From Plantibacter sp. ME-Dv--P-122b (GTDB lineage Bacteria; Actinomycetota; Actinomycetes; Actinomycetales; Microbacteriaceae), in the NCBI RefSeq assembly GCF_030209375.1, contig NZ_JARVSC010000009.1:1-64000 (forward strand): a DNA stretch of 64,000 nt, given 5' to 3'. A program made the position numbers and the translations under genes. Positions 2,646 through 59,218 of this stretch are shown piece by piece. Below the pieces are notes generated by a model. It was not told the DNA's origin. It ran no database searches and was given only the letters and a program-made list of their open reading frames with translations. Numbering within the stretch: the first letter of the stretch is position 1; each line of letters opens with the position of its first letter.

Positions 2646-3726
2646 GGGCGTTCACTCCGAATCCGAGGGCCGCCGAGAACAGCACGGCGACCGCGGTGAT
2701 GATCACGAGGGTCCTGGTCGTGTAGGTGGTGCGCATGAGCGCGAGCATCTTGACGTCGACGACGGGGCCGAGGACGAGGAAGGCGACGATCGAGCCGGGC
2801 ATGAACGTCGAGCCGAAGGACAGCACGAAGAAGGCGTCGACGTTCGAGCAGATCGAGACGATCACGGCGAGCGTCATCATCGCGAGCACCGACCAGACGG
2901 GGTTCGCGCCGAGGGTGACGAGCACCTCGCGTGGCACGAGCACCTGCACGGCACCGGCCACGGCCGACCCGATGAGCAGCGCCGGCATGATCGCGCGCGC
3001 CTCCGCGACGAACTGCTGGAGGCTGCGCTCAACCTTCGTGTGCTCGTGTCCGTGCTGCTCGGTCACCTCGCAGCTGGCCTGGAACGTCGGTGTGAGCAGC
3101 GAGCCGGGATCGGGGTGCTTGCTGAAGAGCCACCCGATGAGGTTCGCGAGCAGGAATCCGCCGACGAGCCGGGCGACGAGGATCCCGCCGTCCCAGCCGA
3201 AGGCCTGATGCGTCGTGACGATGACGATCGGGTTGAGGATCGGCGCCGCGAGCAGGAAGGTGATCGACTCCGGCACCGTGAACCCGCGCACGATGAGCCC
3301 GCGGGCGAGCGGGACGTTCCCGCACTCGCAGACCGGCAGGAACATGCCGAGCAGTGAGATGCACGCTCGACGGAGGATCGGCTGCGTCGGCAGCCCCCGC
3401 TCGAGCCAGCCGTCGGGAAGCCAGATCTGCACGAGGATCGACAGCACGATGCCGAGCACGACGAACGGCAGCGACTCCACCACCACGCTGAGCGTCAGCG
3501 TCACGAAGTCGCGGACCGCGGTGGGCGGGGTGAGCGCCTCACCGAGCGGCATGAGCGCCCGGAGCACGAAGAGCCCGACCACCACGAGCAGTGCGACACC
3601 GATCAGGAGCGGCGTCCGCAGGTTCCGTGGATCACGCCCTTCGGTGCGACCCCAGTGCTCCGCGCCGTCGTCGTCGGGCGCGGTCCAGTCGTCATCGACC
3701 CCGAGGGTGCCGGTCGTCCTGCTCAC
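2638..3726 (-). CDS. UPF0718 (DUF318) family permease (YcgR-like)
   Basis: This 362-residue polytopic membrane protein of the PF03773 permease family has about eight hydrophobic segments, a conserved CECGN motif in the first half and a CSNVDAFF motif in the second, and a central acidic/His-bearing loop (EQHGHEH). The GTG at 3726 lies 7 bp after the zur stop with GAGG upstream; longer frames would run back into zur. It sits between zur and the TIGR03943 gene, so it is probably zinc-responsive. The direction and substrate of transport are unknown. Confidence 0.85.
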   Translation of the reverse strand: MSRTTGTLGVDDDWTAPDDDGAEHWGRTEGRDPRNLRTPLLIGVALLVVVGLFVLRALMPLGEALTPPTAVRDFVTLTLSVVVESLPFVVLGIVLSILVQIWLPDGWLERGLPTQPILRRACISLLGMFLPVCECGNVPLARGLIVRGFTVPESITFLLAAPILNPIVIVTTHQAFGWDGGILVARLVGGFLLANLIGWLFSKHPDPGSLLTPTFQASCEVTEQHGHEHTKVERSLQQFVAEARAIMPALLIGSAVAGAVQVLVPREVLVTLGANPVWSVLAMMTLAVIVSICSNVDAFFVLSFGSTFMPGSIVAFLVLGPVVDVKMLALMRTTYTTRTLVIITAVAVLFSAALGFGVNALA

Positions 3727-3733
3727 TCCGGCC

Positions 3734-4135
3734 TCACGCGCGCTGGGCCGCCGCCGAGCAGTTCTCGCAGAGCCCGAAGACGTCGACGACGTGCTTCGCC
3801 TCGGTGAACCCGTGCTGCGACGCGACCGAGCGCGCCCAGGCTTCGACCTCGTCGGCCTCGATCTCGATGGTGAGACCACAGTTGCGGCAGATGAGGTGGT
3901 GATGGTGGGTGCCCGGCGTGCAGGCGCGGTAGAGGTTCTCGCCCTCAGGCGACTGCAGGGAGTCCGCTTCGCCCTCGACCGCGAGGTCGGAGAGGGCGCG
4001 GTACACGGTCGCGAGCCCGATCGGTGAACCGGTGTCGCGGAGTTCGGCGTGCAGGCCCTGGGCGCTGATGAATCCGTCGTTGCCGCCGAGGGCCTCGCGG
4101 ACAGCTTCTCGCTGCCAGGTGTTGCGCTTCGCCAC
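3734..4135 (-). CDS. zur: Fur-family regulator, probable zinc repressor Zur
   Basis: This 133-residue regulator has a winged helix over about residues 5-75 (recognition-helix region LATVYRALSDL) and a dimer/metal domain. The domain carries the His cluster THHHH (76-80) and two structural-zinc pairs, C83/C86 and C123/C126, as in Fur/Zur proteins. The GTG at 4135 has AGGAG six bases upstream, which decides the start. Lying inside a zinc-uptake operon, it most likely represses its own operon in zinc-replete cells through the palindrome at 7010-7026. Fur (iron) is the alternative, but context favours Zur. Confidence 0.9.
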   Translation of the reverse strand: MAKRNTWQREAVREALGGNDGFISAQGLHAELRDTGSPIGLATVYRALSDLAVEGEADSLQSPEGENLYRACTPGTHHHHLICRNCGLTIEIEADEVEAWARSVASQHGFTEAKHVVDVFGLCENCSAAAQRA

Positions 4136-4227
4136 GGGTGCTCCTGCCTGTCGCTTCAAGGGTACCCGGGAACCGCTCGGAGGAGGCTCCGAAGCAGCTC
4201 CACGCGGACGCGGTGCACGGTCCAGGA

Positions 4228-5127
4228 TCATCGTGCGACCTGGGCGTGCCGCGTCTCGCCGACGGGTGCCCGACGACCACGTCTCCCGGACGCGGTGCGC
4301 GGCCCGACGATGCGGCAGACGAGGTAGATGAGGAAGGAGATCGTCGTGATGTACGGGCTGATCGGGAGTGATCCACCGATGGCGAGCAGGATGCCGCCGA
4401 CCGCCGAGACGAAGCCGAAGAGCATGCTTAGCACCGGGACGAGTACGGGCGACGACGACACCCGGAGCGCCGCGGCCGCGGGCGTCACGAGCAGTGCGAG
4501 GACGAGTAGCGCACCGATGATCTGCACCGACACCGCGACCGTGAGCCCGAGCAGCACCATGAAGGCGAGCGAGACGAACCGACTCGGCACACCGCGCGCT
4601 GCGGCGACGTCCGGGTCGAGGCTGTCGAAGCTGAGCGGCCGCCAGAGGAGCAGGAGCGCGACCAGCACGACGATGCTGATGACGATGAGCAGGCCGAGCT
4701 GCGGGTCGTCGACCGAGACGATCTGCCCGGTGAGGAGCCCGAACTTGTTGGCACTCCGTCCCGGATAGAGCGCGAGGAAGAGGATGCCGAGGCCGAGGCC
4801 GAACGGCATGAGCACCCCGATGATCGAGTTGCGGTCGCGCGCCTTCGAGCCGAGCAGGCCGATGAGGATCGCGGCGACGAGGGACCCCGCGAGGGACCCG
4901 ACGACGACGTTGGCCCCGAACAGCAGCGCACCGGCGGCGCCGGCGAAGGACAGCTCGCTGATCCCGTGCACCGCGAACGCCATGTCCCGCTGCATGACGA
5001 ACACGCCGATGAGGCCGCCGACGATGCCCAGGACCGCGCCGGCGATGATCGAGTTCTGCACGAGTTCGAGCAGGGCGCCGTAGTCCTGGAAGTTGAACAG
5101 GCGTCCCCAGAGGTCGTCGGTGTTCAT
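4228..5127 (-). CDS. znuB: Zinc/manganese ABC transporter permease
   Basis: This 299-residue ABC-3 family permease has about eight to nine hydrophobic helices spread over its length and a conserved glycine-rich region near GISELSFAGAAG. It would form the membrane channel with the ATPase encoded just upstream, whose stop overlaps its ATG (ATGA). A 92-bp gap separates it from zur. The basic C-terminal tail (RRGRRAPVGETRHAQ) is probably cytoplasmic. Zinc is inferred from Zur and the His-rich binding protein; manganese cannot be excluded. Confidence 0.9.
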   Translation of the reverse strand: MNTDDLWGRLFNFQDYGALLELVQNSIIAGAVLGIVGGLIGVFVMQRDMAFAVHGISELSFAGAAGALLFGANVVVGSLAGSLVAAILIGLLGSKARDRNSIIGVLMPFGLGLGILFLALYPGRSANKFGLLTGQIVSVDDPQLGLLIVISIVVLVALLLLWRPLSFDSLDPDVAAARGVPSRFVSLAFMVLLGLTVAVSVQIIGALLVLALLVTPAAAALRVSSSPVLVPVLSMLFGFVSAVGGILLAIGGSLPISPYITTISFLIYLVCRIVGPRTASGRRGRRAPVGETRHAQVAR

Positions 5128-5978
5128 GCGCCGACCCCCACCGCACCGGTGTGCGGATCGTCGTGGTGATGGTGGTGGGTCTCGCTGTCGGGGATGCCGA
5201 CCACGACGACCCGGCCGTGGCTGCGGAGCACGTCGACGGGCGTGCCGTAGAGCTCGGACAGCACCTCGCTGCGGAGCACCTCGTCGGGGGTGCCCTCCCG
5301 GAACCGGCCGCCCGCGAGATACAGGATGCGGTCGACCATGGGGAGCACCGGGTTCACGTCGTGGGTGACGAAGACCACCGCCGTGTCGTGCTCACGTCGG
5401 CGACGGTCGATGAGTTCGCTGACCCCACGCTGATGCTGGAGGTCGAGGCTGAGCAGCGGCTCGTCGCAGAGCAGGAGGATCGGGTCGTCCGCGAGCGCCT
5501 GGGCGACGCGGAGTCGCTGCTGTTCACCGCCGGACAGGGTGCCGACTGCGCCGTCGGCGTAGGCGGTCGCGCCGACGGAGGCGATCAGCTCGTCGACCCG
5601 ACGCTTTGTCGCCGCAGTGCGGATGGGAAGTCCGAACCGGTGGCCGTCGACGCCGAGGGCGACGAGATCGCGACCGCGCATCGGCGTGCCGGCCGGGATG
5701 AGCTTCTGCTGCGGGATGTAGCCGATGCGGCGGTCGCCTCGGTGCACCGGTCCCCCGGCGACCTTGATGGTCCCGCGGTCGAGCTGCTGCTGCCCGAGGA
5801 TGGTGCGCAGCAGGCTCGTCTTGCCGGAGCCGTTCGGGCCGAGCACGGCGAGGAACTCCCCCGGTCGCACCGAGAGGTCGAGGCCGTCCCAAAGCGTTCG
5901 TCCGCCGAAACCGAGCTCGGCCCCGGCGAGCGCGAGGACGTCGACGGGGCCTGAGCCATTGGTCGGACCGCTGGTCAT
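5124..5978 (-). CDS. znuC: Zinc ABC transporter ATP-binding protein
   Basis: This 284-residue ABC ATPase has Walker A GPNGSGKT (47-54), a Q-loop region, the signature LSGGEQQ, Walker B ILLLCDEP and the switch histidine in VFVTHD. It powers zinc import with the adjacent permease. The ATG at 5978 overlaps the binding-protein stop in ATGA, so the start is well fixed. The C-terminus ends in a run of histidines (THHHHHDDPH), absent from most ABC ATPases, which could bind zinc. Confidence 0.92.
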   Translation of the reverse strand: MTSGPTNGSGPVDVLALAGAELGFGGRTLWDGLDLSVRPGEFLAVLGPNGSGKTSLLRTILGQQQLDRGTIKVAGGPVHRGDRRIGYIPQQKLIPAGTPMRGRDLVALGVDGHRFGLPIRTAATKRRVDELIASVGATAYADGAVGTLSGGEQQRLRVAQALADDPILLLCDEPLLSLDLQHQRGVSELIDRRRREHDTAVVFVTHDVNPVLPMVDRILYLAGGRFREGTPDEVLRSEVLSELYGTPVDVLRSHGRVVVVGIPDSETHHHHHDDPHTGAVGVGA

Positions 5979-6964
5979 CGATCCAGGGCGTCCGCCACGG
6001 CGTCGACGTTCTCGGTCATCCACGAGAGGTAGTCCTTGCCGTCCGGGAGGGTCTCGGTGAATGACAGCACCGGCACGCCTGCGTTCTCCGCGGCGGTCTT
6101 GACCTGCTCGGTCTCGCCGCCACTCGTCTGCTCATTGTAGGCAAGCAGCGCGACCGATCCGCCGCCGAAGAGGTCGAGCGTCTCCTTGAGGACGGTCGGT
6201 GACACGTCGGTGCCCTCCTCGATCGCCTCGCTGAACGCCTCTGGGGTGCGGTTCACGAGTCCGGCGCCCTCGAGCAGGTAGAGCGGGACGGGCTCGGTGA
6301 TGGCGACACCCTCGCCGTCGTGTGCGGTCTTGATCGCGGCCTGGGCCGTCTCGATCGTGCCGAGGGACTCGGTGAACGCCTTCGCGTTCGCGGTGTACGT
6401 GGCTGCGTTCGCGCTGTCGAGTTCGCCGAGCTCCTTGGCCAGCTCGTCGGCGAGCTTCGCCATCGTCGGGAGGCTGTACCAGACGTGCTCGTTGAAGCCC
6501 TCGATGTGGTCGTGGCCGTCGTCCTCGGCGTGCGCGTCTCCGGTGTGCGCCTCCTCCGTGTGCTCCTCGTCGGCGTGGTCGTCGTCCGGGGCGAGCCCCG
6601 ACAGGTCGACGACGTTGACGACCTCGACGGACTCGTTCTTGGCGGCATCGAGGAGCGTGTCGACGAACGGGTCGTAGCCGCCACCGTTCTCGATGACGAG
6701 GTCGGCGTTCTTGATGGAGAGCTGGTCCTGCGTGCTCGCCTCGTAGGAATGCGGGTCCTGGGCGGCGGACGAGATGAGCGAGGTCACCTCGACGTCCTTG
6801 CCGCCGATCTTCGAGGCGATGTCGCCGTACACGTTCGTGGAGGCGACGATGTTGATCTTGCCGTCGTCGGCCGCGCTCGACGCGGTGCCGCCGGAGCAGC
6901 CCGCGAGGACGAGGGCGGCTGCCGGGACGATGGCCAAGGTCGGAAGCAGGGTGCGAGCGCGCAT
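5975..6964 (-). CDS. znuA: Zinc ABC transporter substrate-binding lipoprotein
   Basis: This 329-residue cluster A-I (ZnuA/TroA) binding protein has a lipoprotein signal ending in LAGC, with the lipidated Cys at 23. A His/Asp/Glu-rich loop at about residues 125-155 is typical of zinc-binding ZnuA. Metal-ligand histidines are expected near DPHSYE and in the segment after the loop (NEHVW). It is the first gene of the operon, with a Zur-type palindrome about 46 bp upstream of its ATG. It captures zinc outside the membrane and delivers it to the permease. Confidence 0.93.
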   Translation of the reverse strand: MRARTLLPTLAIVPAAALVLAGCSGGTASSAADDGKINIVASTNVYGDIASKIGGKDVEVTSLISSAAQDPHSYEASTQDQLSIKNADLVIENGGGYDPFVDTLLDAAKNESVEVVNVVDLSGLAPDDDHADEEHTEEAHTGDAHAEDDGHDHIEGFNEHVWYSLPTMAKLADELAKELGELDSANAATYTANAKAFTESLGTIETAQAAIKTAHDGEGVAITEPVPLYLLEGAGLVNRTPEAFSEAIEEGTDVSPTVLKETLDLFGGGSVALLAYNEQTSGGETEQVKTAAENAGVPVLSFTETLPDGKDYLSWMTENVDAVADALDR

Positions 6965-20728: not shown

Positions 20729-21469
20729 ATGGATCTGGGTTCGCCCTCACTCGGAGCGATCCGCCGGACGACCGCCGTCGACACCGTCCGCGCACGCATC
20801 TCGCTGGCGTTGGAGCTCGGGATGCTGGTGCCCGGCCAACGGCTCCCGGCACCCGAGGAAGCGGCTCGAGCGTTCGGGGTCAGCGAGATGTCGGTGCGGC
20901 GCGCCTATCGGGCGCTGAGCGACGAGGGCGTCGTCGTCCGGCGACAGGGCAACACGGGTGGCACGTTCATCGCGGACGCCCCTGCGGTGGGCACCGTGCC
21001 CGAGATCGCCGCCTACCGCGAGGACGCCGTCCACGTGCACGCGCTCATCGACCAGCGCGCGACGCTCGAAGCCGGGCTCGCAGCACTGGCTGCCGCTGCA
21101 CCGGAGGCATCCTCCCTGCGTCGACTCGACGACCTCGTGACGACCATGCGGACCGAGCCGGACTGGAGCCGATTCCGCGAGGCCGATGCGGCGTTCCACG
21201 CCGAGCTGGCGGTGTCGGCATGCGTGTCGGGCGCGGCCGACCTCCACGACCGCGTGTCCCGCGAGCTGTACTCCTACTTCATCCCCTACCGGATCGAGTA
21301 CCTGCGCGCGTCGAACGAAGAGCATGCTCTGCTCGTCGCCGCGCTCCGTGACGGCGATGCGGCAGCAGCGAGTCGCCTCGCCTTCGACCACGTCGCGGAG
21401 CTCCACCGCTCGATGTACGTCGGCCTCGCGGGCGCTGGATCCACCGAGAGTGCGCAATCCGCTCCCTGA
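20729..21469 (+). CDS. GntR/FCD-type transcriptional regulator
   Basis: This 246-residue regulator has an N-terminal winged helix (about 12-80, with FGVSEMSVRRAYRAL as recognition region) and a helical FCD-like ligand domain with acidic and His positions. It probably senses the substrate of the upstream hydrolase/permease pair. The start ATG at 20729 follows a weak GAGGGTG site. The last residues, TESAQSAP plus the stop, are encoded by the left arm of a dispersed palindromic repeat, so the native C-terminus may have been replaced. Confidence 0.85.
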   Translation: MDLGSPSLGAIRRTTAVDTVRARISLALELGMLVPGQRLPAPEEAARAFGVSEMSVRRAYRALSDEGVVVRRQGNTGGTFIADAPAVGTVPEIAAYREDAVHVHALIDQRATLEAGLAALAAAAPEASSLRRLDDLVTTMRTEPDWSRFREADAAFHAELAVSACVSGAADLHDRVSRELYSYFIPYRIEYLRASNEEHALLVAALRDGDAAAASRLAFDHVAELHRSMYVGLAGAGSTESAQSAP

Positions 21470-21501
21470 ACAGCGTTGAGCCGACCGAATGCGCGCTCTC
21501 G
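21445..21501 (+). repeat. Dispersed palindromic repeat, copy A
   Basis: The left arm starts CGAGAGTGCGCAATCC and the right arm reads CGAATGCGCGCTCTCG, with two mismatches in the stem and a 23-base middle. The left arm overlaps the end of the GntR gene and provides its stop codon. It is the same element as copies at 22478, 30625, 35014 and 59161. Confidence 0.8.
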
Positions 21502-21557
21502 ATGGGGGCTGTGGATGACGGGAGCGAGCGTCGGCGCGCGATCGGGAGGATGGAGCG

Positions 21558-22502
21558 GTGCCTCGCCATCGTCCGCTCCCACCACGGATTGTTGGCACGG
21601 CGTTCGCGGTCGGCGACCGCGCGCTGCACGGTGAGACGAACGGAAGACTGCGCGGCAGTGATCTCGACGCACCGTTCTGGGGAGTGCGTTCGGTCGACGT
21701 CGACCTGACGAACGTCTTCGGCCGCTGTGCTGCGTTCGCCCCTCGACTCCGACCGGGGTGGGTCTTCAGCCATCTCACTGCGGCGGAACTCCTGGATGCC
21801 CCGCTTCCGAACTCCTGCGCGCACGACACGGACCTCCACATCGGCGCGCTCCACGGAGTGCAGCCGGCGCGTGGCCGAGGCATCGTCGGTCACCGGCTTG
21901 CCGAGGCGACCCGCACGACACAGGTCCGAGGCTTCACCCTCACCGCCCCGGCCGACACGTTCGCGCTCCTGGCGACGATGCTCGAGCTGCCTGACCTCGT
22001 CGCTGTCGGTGACTTCCTCGTATCCGGATCGCGAGTTCGCGGCGGATCTCGTCGCAACATCCACGCGACGATCGACGAGCTCGCTGCCGCCGTGACCGCC
22101 TACGGCTCCCGTCGGTCGGCTCGGCTCCTCCGCAATGCCCTTCCACTCGTGCGTGTGGGCGTCGATTCGCGTCCTGAGACGCACCTGCGCCTCGCGCTCA
22201 TCGAGGCGGGCCTTCCGGAGCCGAGCGTCAACCCACCCGTGCGGGTGGACGGAGGCACTGCGGTACTCCATCCGGATCTCGCCGAACCGTGCCTCCGCAT
22301 CGCCTATGAATACGAAGGCGATCTGCACCGCACCGACCAACAACGGTTCAGGAACGACATCGTTCGCCGCGAGCGGTTCGAGGCGGCCGGATGGCGGGTC
22401 GTCCGCGTCACAGCGCACGACCTCTTCGTCGACCGCGCGTCATTCATCACTCGAGTCCGGCGCCTACGAAGGCTCGTCGAGAGTGCCCATTCCGCTCGCT
22501 GA
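21558..22502 (+). CDS. DUF559 (Vsr-like) nuclease-domain protein
   Basis: This 314-residue protein combines an N-terminal half resembling AbiEi-type or DUF559-associated proteins with a C-terminal PD-(D/E)XK-like DUF559 domain. Visible there are RPETHLRLAL, the core YEYEGDLHR (Glu and Asp ligands) and RRERFEAAGWRVVRVTAHDL. DUF559 is related to Vsr mismatch endonuclease, and its biological role in actinobacteria is unclear. The GTG at 21558 follows GGGAGGA. Palindromic repeats lie on both sides, and the right one encodes its last residues (ESAHSAR) and stop. Confidence 0.8.
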   Translation: MPRHRPLPPRIVGTAFAVGDRALHGETNGRLRGSDLDAPFWGVRSVDVDLTNVFGRCAAFAPRLRPGWVFSHLTAAELLDAPLPNSCAHDTDLHIGALHGVQPARGRGIVGHRLAEATRTTQVRGFTLTAPADTFALLATMLELPDLVAVGDFLVSGSRVRGGSRRNIHATIDELAAAVTAYGSRRSARLLRNALPLVRVGVDSRPETHLRLALIEAGLPEPSVNPPVRVDGGTAVLHPDLAEPCLRIAYEYEGDLHRTDQQRFRNDIVRRERFEAAGWRVVRVTAHDLFVDRASFITRVRRLRRLVESAHSAR

Positions 22503-22534
22503 TGCCGCCTGGTAGCGCAGAATGCGCACTCTCG
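22478..22534 (+). repeat. Dispersed palindromic repeat, copy B
   Basis: Left arm CGAGAGTGCCCATTC and right arm GAATGCGCACTCTCG pair with one mismatch around a 27-base middle. The left arm encodes the C-terminal ESAHSAR and stop of the DUF559 gene. The unit extends on the right into GGCGAGC. Confidence 0.85.
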
Positions 22535-22626: not shown

Positions 22627-24291
22627 ATGATCGACAAGGCCTCGATACAGGACTTCCCGCCGATGACGGCATCGCTGCTGGCGGACAATTCCGGCGTGTT
22701 CCGCGTCGGCACCGCCGAGCAGTACCTGACCGCCACCGACGAGGGAACGGCCCGCCGCCAGCTCGTCGAACTGATGCAGGCGGAGGCCCGGAAGTCGGGT
22801 CGACCGATCCGCGTGACGGTGACCGACCCCACGAGCGTCACCGTGCTCCTCGTCGGTGTCGACGGCGAACTGCAGGAGGAACCGCAATCCGCAGCGCCCG
22901 CGCGCACCGCGCAACGGACCACGCCACCGCCCGCAGCCGCGCAACGGGTGCCGCTCATCCAGGCGCCGCCGTCCACGCCCTCGCAGCCGGCACCCGCGCG
23001 TCCGGCTCCGGCTCAGCCGCAGACACCGCCCCGTGCCGCGCCCGTCCAGCCGTCGACACCTGCGCCGGTCCCGGCACAGCCCACGCCGCCAGCCTCCGCG
23101 AACCCGCAGGCGACCGCGACGCCGCAGCCCGTCCCCGCGCAACGCCCGACCGTGCAGCAGCCCACCTTCGGCACACCGCCGTTCCAGCCGGTCTCGAACC
23201 AGCCGAACGCTCAGCAGGCAGTGTCGGCGCAGCAGCCACCGGTGTCGGCGCAGCAGGCGCCGGCCCAGCGGGCGGTCCCGGCCCAGCCATCGGTGCAGGC
23301 ACCGCCGACCGCACCCGCGCAGCAGCAACCCCCGGTCCCACAGCAGCAGGTTCCGGGCCAGCCGACCGCACCGGCTCGTCGTGATCTGCGCGATGCGCCC
23401 TCGTTCCTCGCGCCGCCCACGATCGGACCCGCGCAGCACGGGCTCGCCGGCCTGCTCAACAAACTCGGCTTCTCGGTGCCGCCGTCCGCGAGCGAGCGCG
23501 CCGAACGGGACGACGTCCACGCCGTGTCACGCCACTTCCCGAGGCGTCGCACCATCTCGGTCGCGAATCAGAAGGGCGGCGCCAACAAGACGCCGACCGT
23601 CGTCAACCTGTCGTCCGTCTTCGCCCGGTACGGCGGCGGCGGTGTCGCGGCGTGGGACAACAACGAGACCATGGGCACGCTCGGCTGGCGGACCGAGCAG
23701 GGCGGGCACGACTCGACCGTCCTCGACCTCCTCGCCGCGGCGGGCGACCTCCTCTCCCCCGGCGCCGAGCGAGCCGACCTGTCGCGGTTCGTCCACCACC
23801 AGCCCGGCGACAAGTACGAGGTGCTGCGATCCGCGGCGGACGGCGAGCACGTGGTGACCGCCGACGAGGTCGACCTCGTCCATCGCGTCCTCGCGAAGTA
23901 CTACCGCCTGATCGTCATGGACTCGGGCAACTCGGCCGGCGCCCCCAACTGGCGGCGCATGGTGGAGCTGACCGACCAGCTCGTCATCCCGACCACGACG
24001 GTCGAGGACAAGAAGGAGGGCGCGCGACTCACCCTCACCGCCGTCAGCCGCGTGAGCGAGCGCGGTGCTGAACTCGCGCGCAACGCCGTCGTCATCGTCT
24101 CCGAGGCCGAGGCGAAGGACACGTCGATCGCAAACGCGTACGCCGAGGACTTCCGGCCGTACGTGCGCGACGTGGTCGTCGTCCCCTTCGATCCCGCGTT
24201 GAAGAACGGCGTCATCCGTCACGATGCCCTGCGGTCGGGCACGCAGCGGGCGTGGCTCGCAGCGGCTGCCGCGGTGTCCCGCGGACTCTGA
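22627..24291 (+). CDS. MinD/ParA-like ATPase with proline-rich linker
   Basis: This 554-residue protein has an N-terminal small domain (about 1-80), a long low-complexity Pro/Gln/Ala linker (about 85-260) and a C-terminal P-loop ATPase. The Walker A is KGGANKT (316-322); the usual glycine before the second lysine is Asn, and the signature first lysine is kept. A MDSGNSAG segment takes the Walker B place. The architecture resembles mycobacterial EspI-type proteins, which work with type VII secretion, but no secretion genes are adjacent. GAAGGAGTGAGAGC precedes the ATG. It stands alone and its role is unknown. Confidence 0.85.
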   Translation: MIDKASIQDFPPMTASLLADNSGVFRVGTAEQYLTATDEGTARRQLVELMQAEARKSGRPIRVTVTDPTSVTVLLVGVDGELQEEPQSAAPARTAQRTTPPPAAAQRVPLIQAPPSTPSQPAPARPAPAQPQTPPRAAPVQPSTPAPVPAQPTPPASANPQATATPQPVPAQRPTVQQPTFGTPPFQPVSNQPNAQQAVSAQQPPVSAQQAPAQRAVPAQPSVQAPPTAPAQQQPPVPQQQVPGQPTAPARRDLRDAPSFLAPPTIGPAQHGLAGLLNKLGFSVPPSASERAERDDVHAVSRHFPRRRTISVANQKGGANKTPTVVNLSSVFARYGGGGVAAWDNNETMGTLGWRTEQGGHDSTVLDLLAAAGDLLSPGAERADLSRFVHHQPGDKYEVLRSAADGEHVVTADEVDLVHRVLAKYYRLIVMDSGNSAGAPNWRRMVELTDQLVIPTTTVEDKKEGARLTLTAVSRVSERGAELARNAVVIVSEAEAKDTSIANAYAEDFRPYVRDVVVVPFDPALKNGVIRHDALRSGTQRAWLAAAAAVSRGL

Positions 24292-30624: not shown

Positions 30625-30684
30625 CCGAGAGTGCCCGTTCTGCTCGCCGAACTGCTCCGAAAGCGCAGAACGAGCACTCTCGGC
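30625..30684 (+). repeat. Dispersed palindromic repeat, copy C
   Basis: Left arm CCGAGAGTGCCCGTTCTGC and right arm GCAGAACGAGCACTCTCGG pair with one mismatch around a 22-base middle. It lies between convergent genes. Compared with copies B and E, both arms carry the compensating change CATTC/GAATG to CGTTC/GAACG. Confidence 0.85.
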
Positions 30685-35013: not shown

Positions 35014-35090
35014 AGAGTGCACCGCGATCCCGAAAGCGCGCGTTCTGCTCGCTGGAAGGGTCTGATGCAGCAGAACGTGCACTCTGGGCG
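35014..35090 (+). repeat. Dispersed palindromic repeat, copy D (degenerate)
   Basis: The right arm GCAGAACGTGCACTCT and the inner left arm CGCGTTCTGC are intact. The outer left arm (AGAGTGC, 35014-35020) is separated from the inner part by about 17 extra bases. It lies in a divergent intergenic region, so it is not simply a transcription terminator. The rest of the 34932-35280 gap (35091-35280) shows no gene. Confidence 0.6.
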
Positions 35091-59160: not shown

Positions 59161-59218
59161 CGAGAGTGTGCATTCCGCTCGCCGATCCGTGATGAGTGAA
59201 CCGAATGCGCACTCTCGG
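59161..59218 (+). repeat. Dispersed palindromic repeat, copy E
   Basis: Left arm CGAGAGTGTGCATTC and right arm GAATGCGCACTCTCG pair with only one G-T type mismatch around a 28-base middle. It directly abuts the gene remnant on its left and lies 31 bp before the membrane-protein gene at 59250 on its right. Confidence 0.85.

Follow-up and report, generated by a model that had tools for sequence, protein, structure and literature searches.

Nuclease genes of the DUF559/MTES_1575 type are mostly bracketed by a pair of palindromes in actinobacterial genomes, and each gene appears to have a palindrome of its own. We analyzed a 64,000-nucleotide stretch of DNA (the window) from a Plantibacter genome of the Microbacteriaceae (G000; 3.92 Mb, 14 contigs). 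The original prediction had proposed a link between one such nuclease and the repeats beside it from position alone. Our analyses support this link, as most homologs are bracketed by their own palindrome pair, and at the level of sequence comparison the nuclease-palindrome association is as good as proven.

Results

A palindrome pair encloses the nuclease gene of the window

The repeats predicted on both sides of the DUF559 gene were confirmed (Table 1). A and B are imperfect palindromes of exactly 57 bp each and share one orientation, and 56 bp separate A from the nuclease start codon, close to the earlier estimate of about 57 bp. The stop codon of the GntR gene (21467-21469) sits inside A. 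On the other side, the last 25 nt of the nuclease gene lie within B, including its TGA stop.

Table 1 Features of the nuclease locus and solo palindromes of the window.
Feature	Position	Strand	Remarks
GntR/FCD regulator gene	20729-21469	+	Outside the module; anchor of the empty-site comparison
Palindrome A, 57 bp, CGAGAGTGCGCAATC...GAATGCGCGCTCTCG	21445-21501	+	Left bracket; carries the stop of the GntR gene
Nuclease gene, 314 aa, GTG start	21558-22502	+	C-terminal MTES_1575/DUF559 (Vsr-like) domain
N-terminal part of the nuclease, AbiEi-type (approximate)	21603-22082	+	AbiEi matches in homologs L266 and L275, residues 16-181
Catalytic region (S204, E207, D240, E251-Y-x-G, H257, D267, R270)	22167-22460	+	Residue conservation in homologs
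Palindrome B, 57 bp	22478-22534	+	Right bracket; gives the nuclease gene its stop
Gene with Pro/Gln-rich N-terminus and ParA-like ATPase C-terminus	22627-24291	+	Outside the module; ParA label assigned by eye
Solo palindrome C	30626-30682	+	Two convergent genes stop 11-13 bp away; synteny block junction
Solo palindrome D	35031-35087	+	Away from any nuclease gene
Solo palindrome E	59161-59217	+	Begins a synteny block common to G152

The outer ends of the window palindromes read CGAG...CTCG, and 65 of 103 palindromes have CGA/TCG close to their ends. A sequence-plus-structure model of 57 bp, trained on the five copies of the window (A-E), scored A and B at 71 and 73 bits, values that are not independent because both copies are in the training set. 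Independent support comes from shuffle-tested folds and from orthologous copies in other species. As single strands, A, B, C and E folded better than all of their dinucleotide shuffles (z -4 to -6); the fold of D was moderate and not better than all shuffles (z -2.7). Copy A has an orthologous counterpart in three other Plantibacter genomes (G150, G152 and G050). Neither A nor B was predicted as an intrinsic terminator and no U-tract follows the hairpin. The window palindromes matched no Rfam family and lack a GTAG or CGTC tag.

The nuclease gene has an ortholog in P. flavus VKM Ac-2504 (91% identity). Its neighbors encode a GntR regulator and a ParA-like protein, the latter labeled by eye, and no obvious AbiEii toxin gene was recognized there. 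The Pro/Gln-rich/ParA-like gene is kept in all seven Plantibacter genomes.

Bracketing is common across the nuclease family

Nuclease homologs were found in 101 of the 150 Microbacteriaceae genomes sampled and in 173 of 395 genomes sampled from the class, with several paralogs each. We compared the 5' and 3' flanks of 93 loci from 58 Microbacteriaceae genomes by ungapped local alignment and counted a score of at least 20 as a pair. Of the loci, 59% reached this score. The rate was 0.13% when flanks were swapped across genomes and 0.6% for random positions spaced ~1 kb from each other. Among roughly 287 other genes in the Plantibacter stretches, four reached it. Hairpin scores were about twice those of the controls on both flanks of nuclease loci. 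Divergence between A and B holds the window locus itself to a score of 17.5, which nevertheless exceeds the 99% point of the swapped control.

Loci from other actinobacterial families gave a similar picture (36 of 51 reached 20 vs. 0.9% of swapped pairs). All four loci in named records were bracketed, three on the Arthrobacter megaplasmids NZ_AP024649.1, NZ_CP012477.1 and NZ_AP024648.1 and one on the phage scaffold MT837503.1. An Arthrobacter example is the 57-bp palindrome CGAGATGGCATTTGATG...CATCAAATGCCATCTCG. The scaffold MT837503.1, whose stretch 3483-6739 (L324) holds the bracketed homolog, is an unverified 6.7-kb sequence from human faeces and its phage origin is doubtful.

About 40% of the Microbacteriaceae loci were without a clear pair. 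Some of these have a single palindrome only, or the test may have been too strict. Inverted pairs made up 8 of 55; where orientations could be distinguished, 23 pairs were direct vs. 8 inverted. The palindrome often ends ~40-130 bp before the nuclease start.

Palindromes are gene-specific and low in copy number

The palindrome varies between homologs, yet both flanks of one gene match. In G000, for instance, four nuclease paralogs have four palindromes (GAGAGTGC.., GCGAACTGTCA.., ATTCGCCCA.. and GAGTCGCCCGGATCTGC..). Palindrome similarity tracks protein similarity (Mantel r 0.35, a value reached in 0 of 2000 permutations), and palindromes are recognizably alike only at ~60% nuclease identity or more. 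We tested the refutation named by the original prediction, DUF559 homologs that commonly lack the repeat: they do not have one sequence in common, but most have a pair of their own. A single repeat sequence common to all DUF559 homologs was rejected, as the repeats are gene-specific.

Two groups of loci illustrate variation within palindromes. In another actinobacterial family (f27), six loci (L266, L272, L274, L275, L285 and L287) have palindromes that share the ends GTTGATCATGGAG...CTCCATGATCAAC and differ inside. At L201-L220, several different variants of 57 bp (e.g., CGAGAGCGCCCGTTCCGTC.., CGAGAGTGCACAAAACGCTCCC..), with CGAG...CTCG as their ends, are found in a number of species at corresponding convergent gene ends, and both arms covary.

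Scoring of 150 candidates revealed that the window-type palindrome is a low-copy sequence in G000, with at least ~12 sites. We therefore rejected a highly abundant palindrome, bearing in mind that ~12 is a lower bound. An exact half-site pattern search of the same genome returned no copy, as the copies vary. The window-type model found ~7-13 sites in each of the five genomes of the nuclease-bearing clade vs. one or two weak matches in G120 and G153, the two Plantibacter genomes that fall outside it. The second palindrome family has 21-25 half-sites in clade genomes vs. 2-4 in G120 and G153, with 0-2 for a reversed-pattern control. Overall, copy numbers are mostly ~5-15 per genome, and phages and plasmids have almost no copies. 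No RAYT/Y1 transposase (PF01797) was detected in the seven Plantibacter genomes by a search that recovers the domain in E. coli and other controls.

The palindromes are nearly absent from G120 and G153, which lack the gene. As two exceptions, G151 and G152, each without one nuclease type, have kept its solo palindromes. These solo copies outlive the gene, which fits recent loss.

Outside Plantibacter, one nuclease is bracketed in a genome of another genus (G063), which also contains about four solo copies. G129, a relative of G063, carries the same palindromes around a frameshifted nuclease, and G000 has none of that type. The broken nuclease gene of G129 is still placed between its two palindromes. 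Broken nuclease genes (with a frameshift, a split frame or an in-frame stop) were seen at L244 and L246 (both in G129), L182 and L188 (both in G120) and L071.

Empty sites retain a single palindrome

For the comparison of occupied and empty sites, we used the GntR/ParA-like locus, which is common to seven Plantibacter genomes. Four of the seven have the arrangement palindrome-nuclease-palindrome. The nuclease is missing from the other three, of which G151 and G120 have one decayed palindrome each and G153 has a short remnant only. The left side of the G151 palindrome is A-like and its right side is B-like.

G050 and G152 carry a second nuclease type (54% identical) with a palindrome on each side; in G050 these two copies are identical. 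The same neighbor genes enclose exactly one well-preserved 57-bp palindrome in G150, G151 and G000. In G151 this solo palindrome has a left-type loop, in G150 a right-type loop. Such a difference would be expected from at least two removals of the gene by recombination between direct copies. Empty sites of the kind sought by the original prediction thus exist at two Plantibacter loci, each with a single palindrome where the nuclease is absent. Both can be read as losses; a direct insertion event was not seen. The nuclease with the GAGTCGCCCGGATCTGC palindrome is missing from G152, and palindromes persist near its expected place (the position is inferred from spacing), which would fit a third case.

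The stretch to the right of the GntR gene (window positions 21445-59217; L142-L159) is a hot spot of gain and loss among the seven Plantibacter species. Conserved blocks in this hot spot often finish at palindromes.

Solo palindromes lie at convergent gene ends and synteny edges

C, D and E are exactly 57 bp each, have the orientation of A and B and lie away from any such nuclease gene. Palindrome C joins a left part common to G150 and G151 with a right part common to G050. Outside the window, solo copies are mostly found between convergent 3' ends, often 6-20 bp from both stops. Within a 43-kb stretch around the nuclease, 12 of 14 solo palindromes were at most 20 bp from a synteny block edge, compared with 37% of intergenic windows and 9% of all windows; since the 14 sites lack independence and lie in a region that is a hot spot in general, we take this as supporting evidence only. 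In G150, solo copies are more frequent close to the nuclease, with 2 of 5 and 3 of 14 no more than 30 kb away (P ~0.002 and ~0.001). No solo palindrome was found as a clean 57-bp insertion at a site that is unchanged apart from it, and G000 has 77 unrelated bases where G151 carries a solo copy. At 2252-3464 of L201 (G050:C10), two window-type palindromes 1.1 kb apart stand around other small genes and not a nuclease homolog.

The nuclease has a conserved Vsr-like catalytic region

Compared with Pfam, the window protein matched only MTES_1575, a family of Vsr-type REases (E 9e-6, below Pfam's cut-off). Among 26 diverse homologs, 21 matched MTES_1575 and 14 matched DUF559. Residues of the catalytic region are invariant or almost so across these 26 proteins. 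Over 92 homologs, S204, E207, R211, D240, E251, Y252, G254, H257, D267 and R270 are 97-100% conserved, with E207, D240, H257 and D267 at 99-100%. The E-D-x-H-D residue set is what we take to be the signature of Vsr-like/EDxHD enzymes. Between Plantibacter species, dN/dS is 0.10-0.17 for the window-type gene and 0.20 for the second nuclease type, indicating that the protein is under purifying selection.

The window protein itself had no match with the AbiEi models, and some homologs match them over the N-terminal part. Its AlphaFold model is poor (pLDDT 54) and too weak to define the N-terminal fold. Because of this, the best plausible Foldseek match, the catalytic domain of I-Bth0305I, is weak (probability 0.95, TM 0.61 by target, E 0.15). 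I-Bth0305I was also found as a weak profile match. A review describes this enzyme as dimerizing on its target, which spans nearly 60 bp (PMC3943268). The name of the MTES_1575 family derives from a HEPN conflict protein (PMC3710099). PADLOC gave weak matches to AbiEi and mREase_II, and a defence-system search with the window protein gave no match.

Discussion

We propose that nuclease and palindromes form a self-contained module in which the nuclease recognizes a ~57-bp palindrome of its own and promotes recombination at that site, a reading to which we give an even chance. The protein, in which an AbiEi-like N-terminal region precedes a Vsr/EDxHD-like catalytic domain, would recognize the palindrome, most likely bind it as a dimer that mirrors the symmetry of the site, and cut or nick it. 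The break would be repaired by recombination with another palindrome copy. Such repair could copy the nuclease gene into a solo palindrome, turning palindrome into palindrome-gene-palindrome, and recombination between the bracketing copies could delete the gene and leave one palindrome. The same activity might turn solo palindromes into junctions that exchange neighboring gene content. We infer binding, cleavage and dimerization, the nuclease rather than general recombination as the driver, and the origin of new solo sites. Recombination at the gene's own palindrome is the most economical reading because it would account for genes gained or lost at a site that otherwise has a single palindrome, for pairs that change in concert and for the mosaic junctions. 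Homing by itself leaves the arrival of solo palindromes at new sites unexplained; moreover, with both bracketing palindromes intact the gene would remain cleavable, which counts against it.

A broader reading, to which we lean slightly less than to the module itself, is that these genes represent a new class of selfish or domesticated elements across Actinomycetes, built on a dimeric Vsr/EDxHD nuclease that spreads via its own ~57-bp palindrome. Tentatively, such elements would enter solo palindromes, leave a single palindrome after loss and shape gene content through solo copies. With the same reserve, we suggest that repeat and enzyme co-evolve so fast that likeness is confined to the higher nuclease identities (~60% or more).

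The main rival that remains is a single-strand mechanism of the RAYT kind. The nuclease would then act on the single-stranded palindrome hairpin at the replication fork and move small non-autonomous elements, which we consider rather unlikely; it is similarly doubtful that the bracketed gene is an autonomous unit (a 'REPtron') retained through domestication. RAYT genes are flanked by their own REPs, most repeats lying <20 bp from convergent 3' ends (PMC3733652), and the layout here resembles theirs in its repeat-specific copies and convergent 3' ends. Solo palindromes that are dispersed at low copy, denser near the nuclease and almost missing from phages and plasmids point the same way. However, the catalytic domain is Vsr-like and not HUH/Y1, RAYTs are absent, and the ~5-15 copies fall short of hundreds. 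The lack of a clean 57-bp solo insertion also speaks against a RAYT-like process, as does the palindrome retained at empty sites, unlike in IS200/IS605 excision. General RecA recombination of the direct repeats could produce the losses with no role for the nuclease, but passive recombination between hairpin repeats does not account for the specific pairing.

Further explanations fare less well. A considerably less probable one, which involves no mobility, is that the AbiEi-like N-terminal part autoregulates the gene via the palindromes and that the other copies are operators or 3'-end hairpins. AbiEi antitoxins recognize their own promoter through inverted repeats, AbiEi models match some homologs, the palindrome is often found ~40-130 bp upstream of the start, and the co-divergence of protein and palindrome is compatible with operator co-evolution. 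Operators would not explain the second, downstream copy of the same palindrome, the empty sites with a single palindrome, the distant solo copies where 3' ends converge or why the nuclease residues are so strictly conserved. It is very unlikely that the nuclease is a restriction-like or toxin enzyme for defence or addiction and that the palindromes label DNA as self or retain the locus. Relatives of Vsr and AbiEi are known in defence systems, PADLOC gave weak matches to AbiEi and mREase_II, and MTES_1575 takes its name from a HEPN conflict protein (PMC3710099), but neither a partner toxin nor a methylase was recognized next to the gene, the window protein has no defence-system match, and paired gene-specific palindromes and empty sites would be left unexplained. 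Least credible of all is that bidirectional 3'-end hairpins were selected at gene ends as terminators or insulators and that the nuclease came to lie between two of them by chance. Strong hairpins at stop codons and solo copies between convergent genes would suit such a role. Against it, A and B have no U-tract and no terminator prediction, pairing is specific to nuclease genes (59-71% vs. ~1% for other genes), and the sequence varies by nuclease type, differing between paralogs of one genome. This model is contradicted by the swapped-flank and gene-level controls and is largely refuted. An integron attC-like reading, suggested by 57-bp direct palindromes at variable-gene junctions, was set aside since attC core motifs were absent on inspection.

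To our knowledge, the enzymes linked with bacterial palindromic repeats have until now been HUH/Y1 transposases (RAYTs), and a large share of bacterial palindromes are without a known partner enzyme. A search of open-access full texts, which largely excludes subscription papers and preprints, found no report tying DUF559/MTES_1575 genes to palindromes. The present results tie a large and common actinobacterial gene family to gene-specific palindromes. The pairing assigns a likely, predicted substrate to DUF559/MTES_1575 proteins and explains the source of a set of intergenic palindromes. It also offers many natural enzyme-site pairs with long, distinct putative recognition sequences, and it makes one question concrete, namely whether these nucleases cut their own palindromes and so move genes.

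Comparison with known systems

Like the antitoxins of type IV toxin-antitoxin systems, some homologs have an AbiEi-matching N-terminus and a palindrome upstream, but a C-terminal nuclease replaces the usual antitoxin end. The C-terminal fold and catalytic residues are those of Vsr mismatch endonucleases and DUF559 proteins, from which the module differs by its gene-specific palindrome pair and by having no methylase context. With IS200/IS605 it shares small size and a hairpin at both ends; unlike those elements, it has no TnpA and no defined cleavage guides, and it leaves the whole palindrome at the empty site.

Two systems come closer. EDxHD homing endonucleases such as I-Bth0305I appear to have a related catalytic core with the conserved E, D, H and D, although the fold and profile match is weak. 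The target length is also similar (nearly 60 bp, bound by a dimer; PMC3943268), with the palindrome as the predicted target here, and the gene is present or absent at one site, as seen at two loci in this study. Unlike those genes, the nuclease gene lies outside any intron or intein; and, in contrast to classical homing, the target palindrome is full length on both sides of the gene and insertion does not destroy it. RAYT-REP/REPIN systems likewise consist of one chromosomal gene flanked by palindromes that are also present alone elsewhere, with a gene-specific palindrome type, 3'-end sites that are often convergent and hardly any copies on phages or plasmids. They differ in their HUH/Y1 enzyme, which is Vsr/PD-(D/E)XK-type here, and in their GTAG/CGTC tag, which is missing here; our palindromes are ~57-65 bp with long arms, mostly in 5-15 copies and usually direct around the gene. 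By analogy, then, the module is akin to a homing endonuclease in its enzyme and site length and to RAYT-REP in its layout and genomic habit. It would stand outside both classes because it has no HUH domain and because insertion leaves the target intact.
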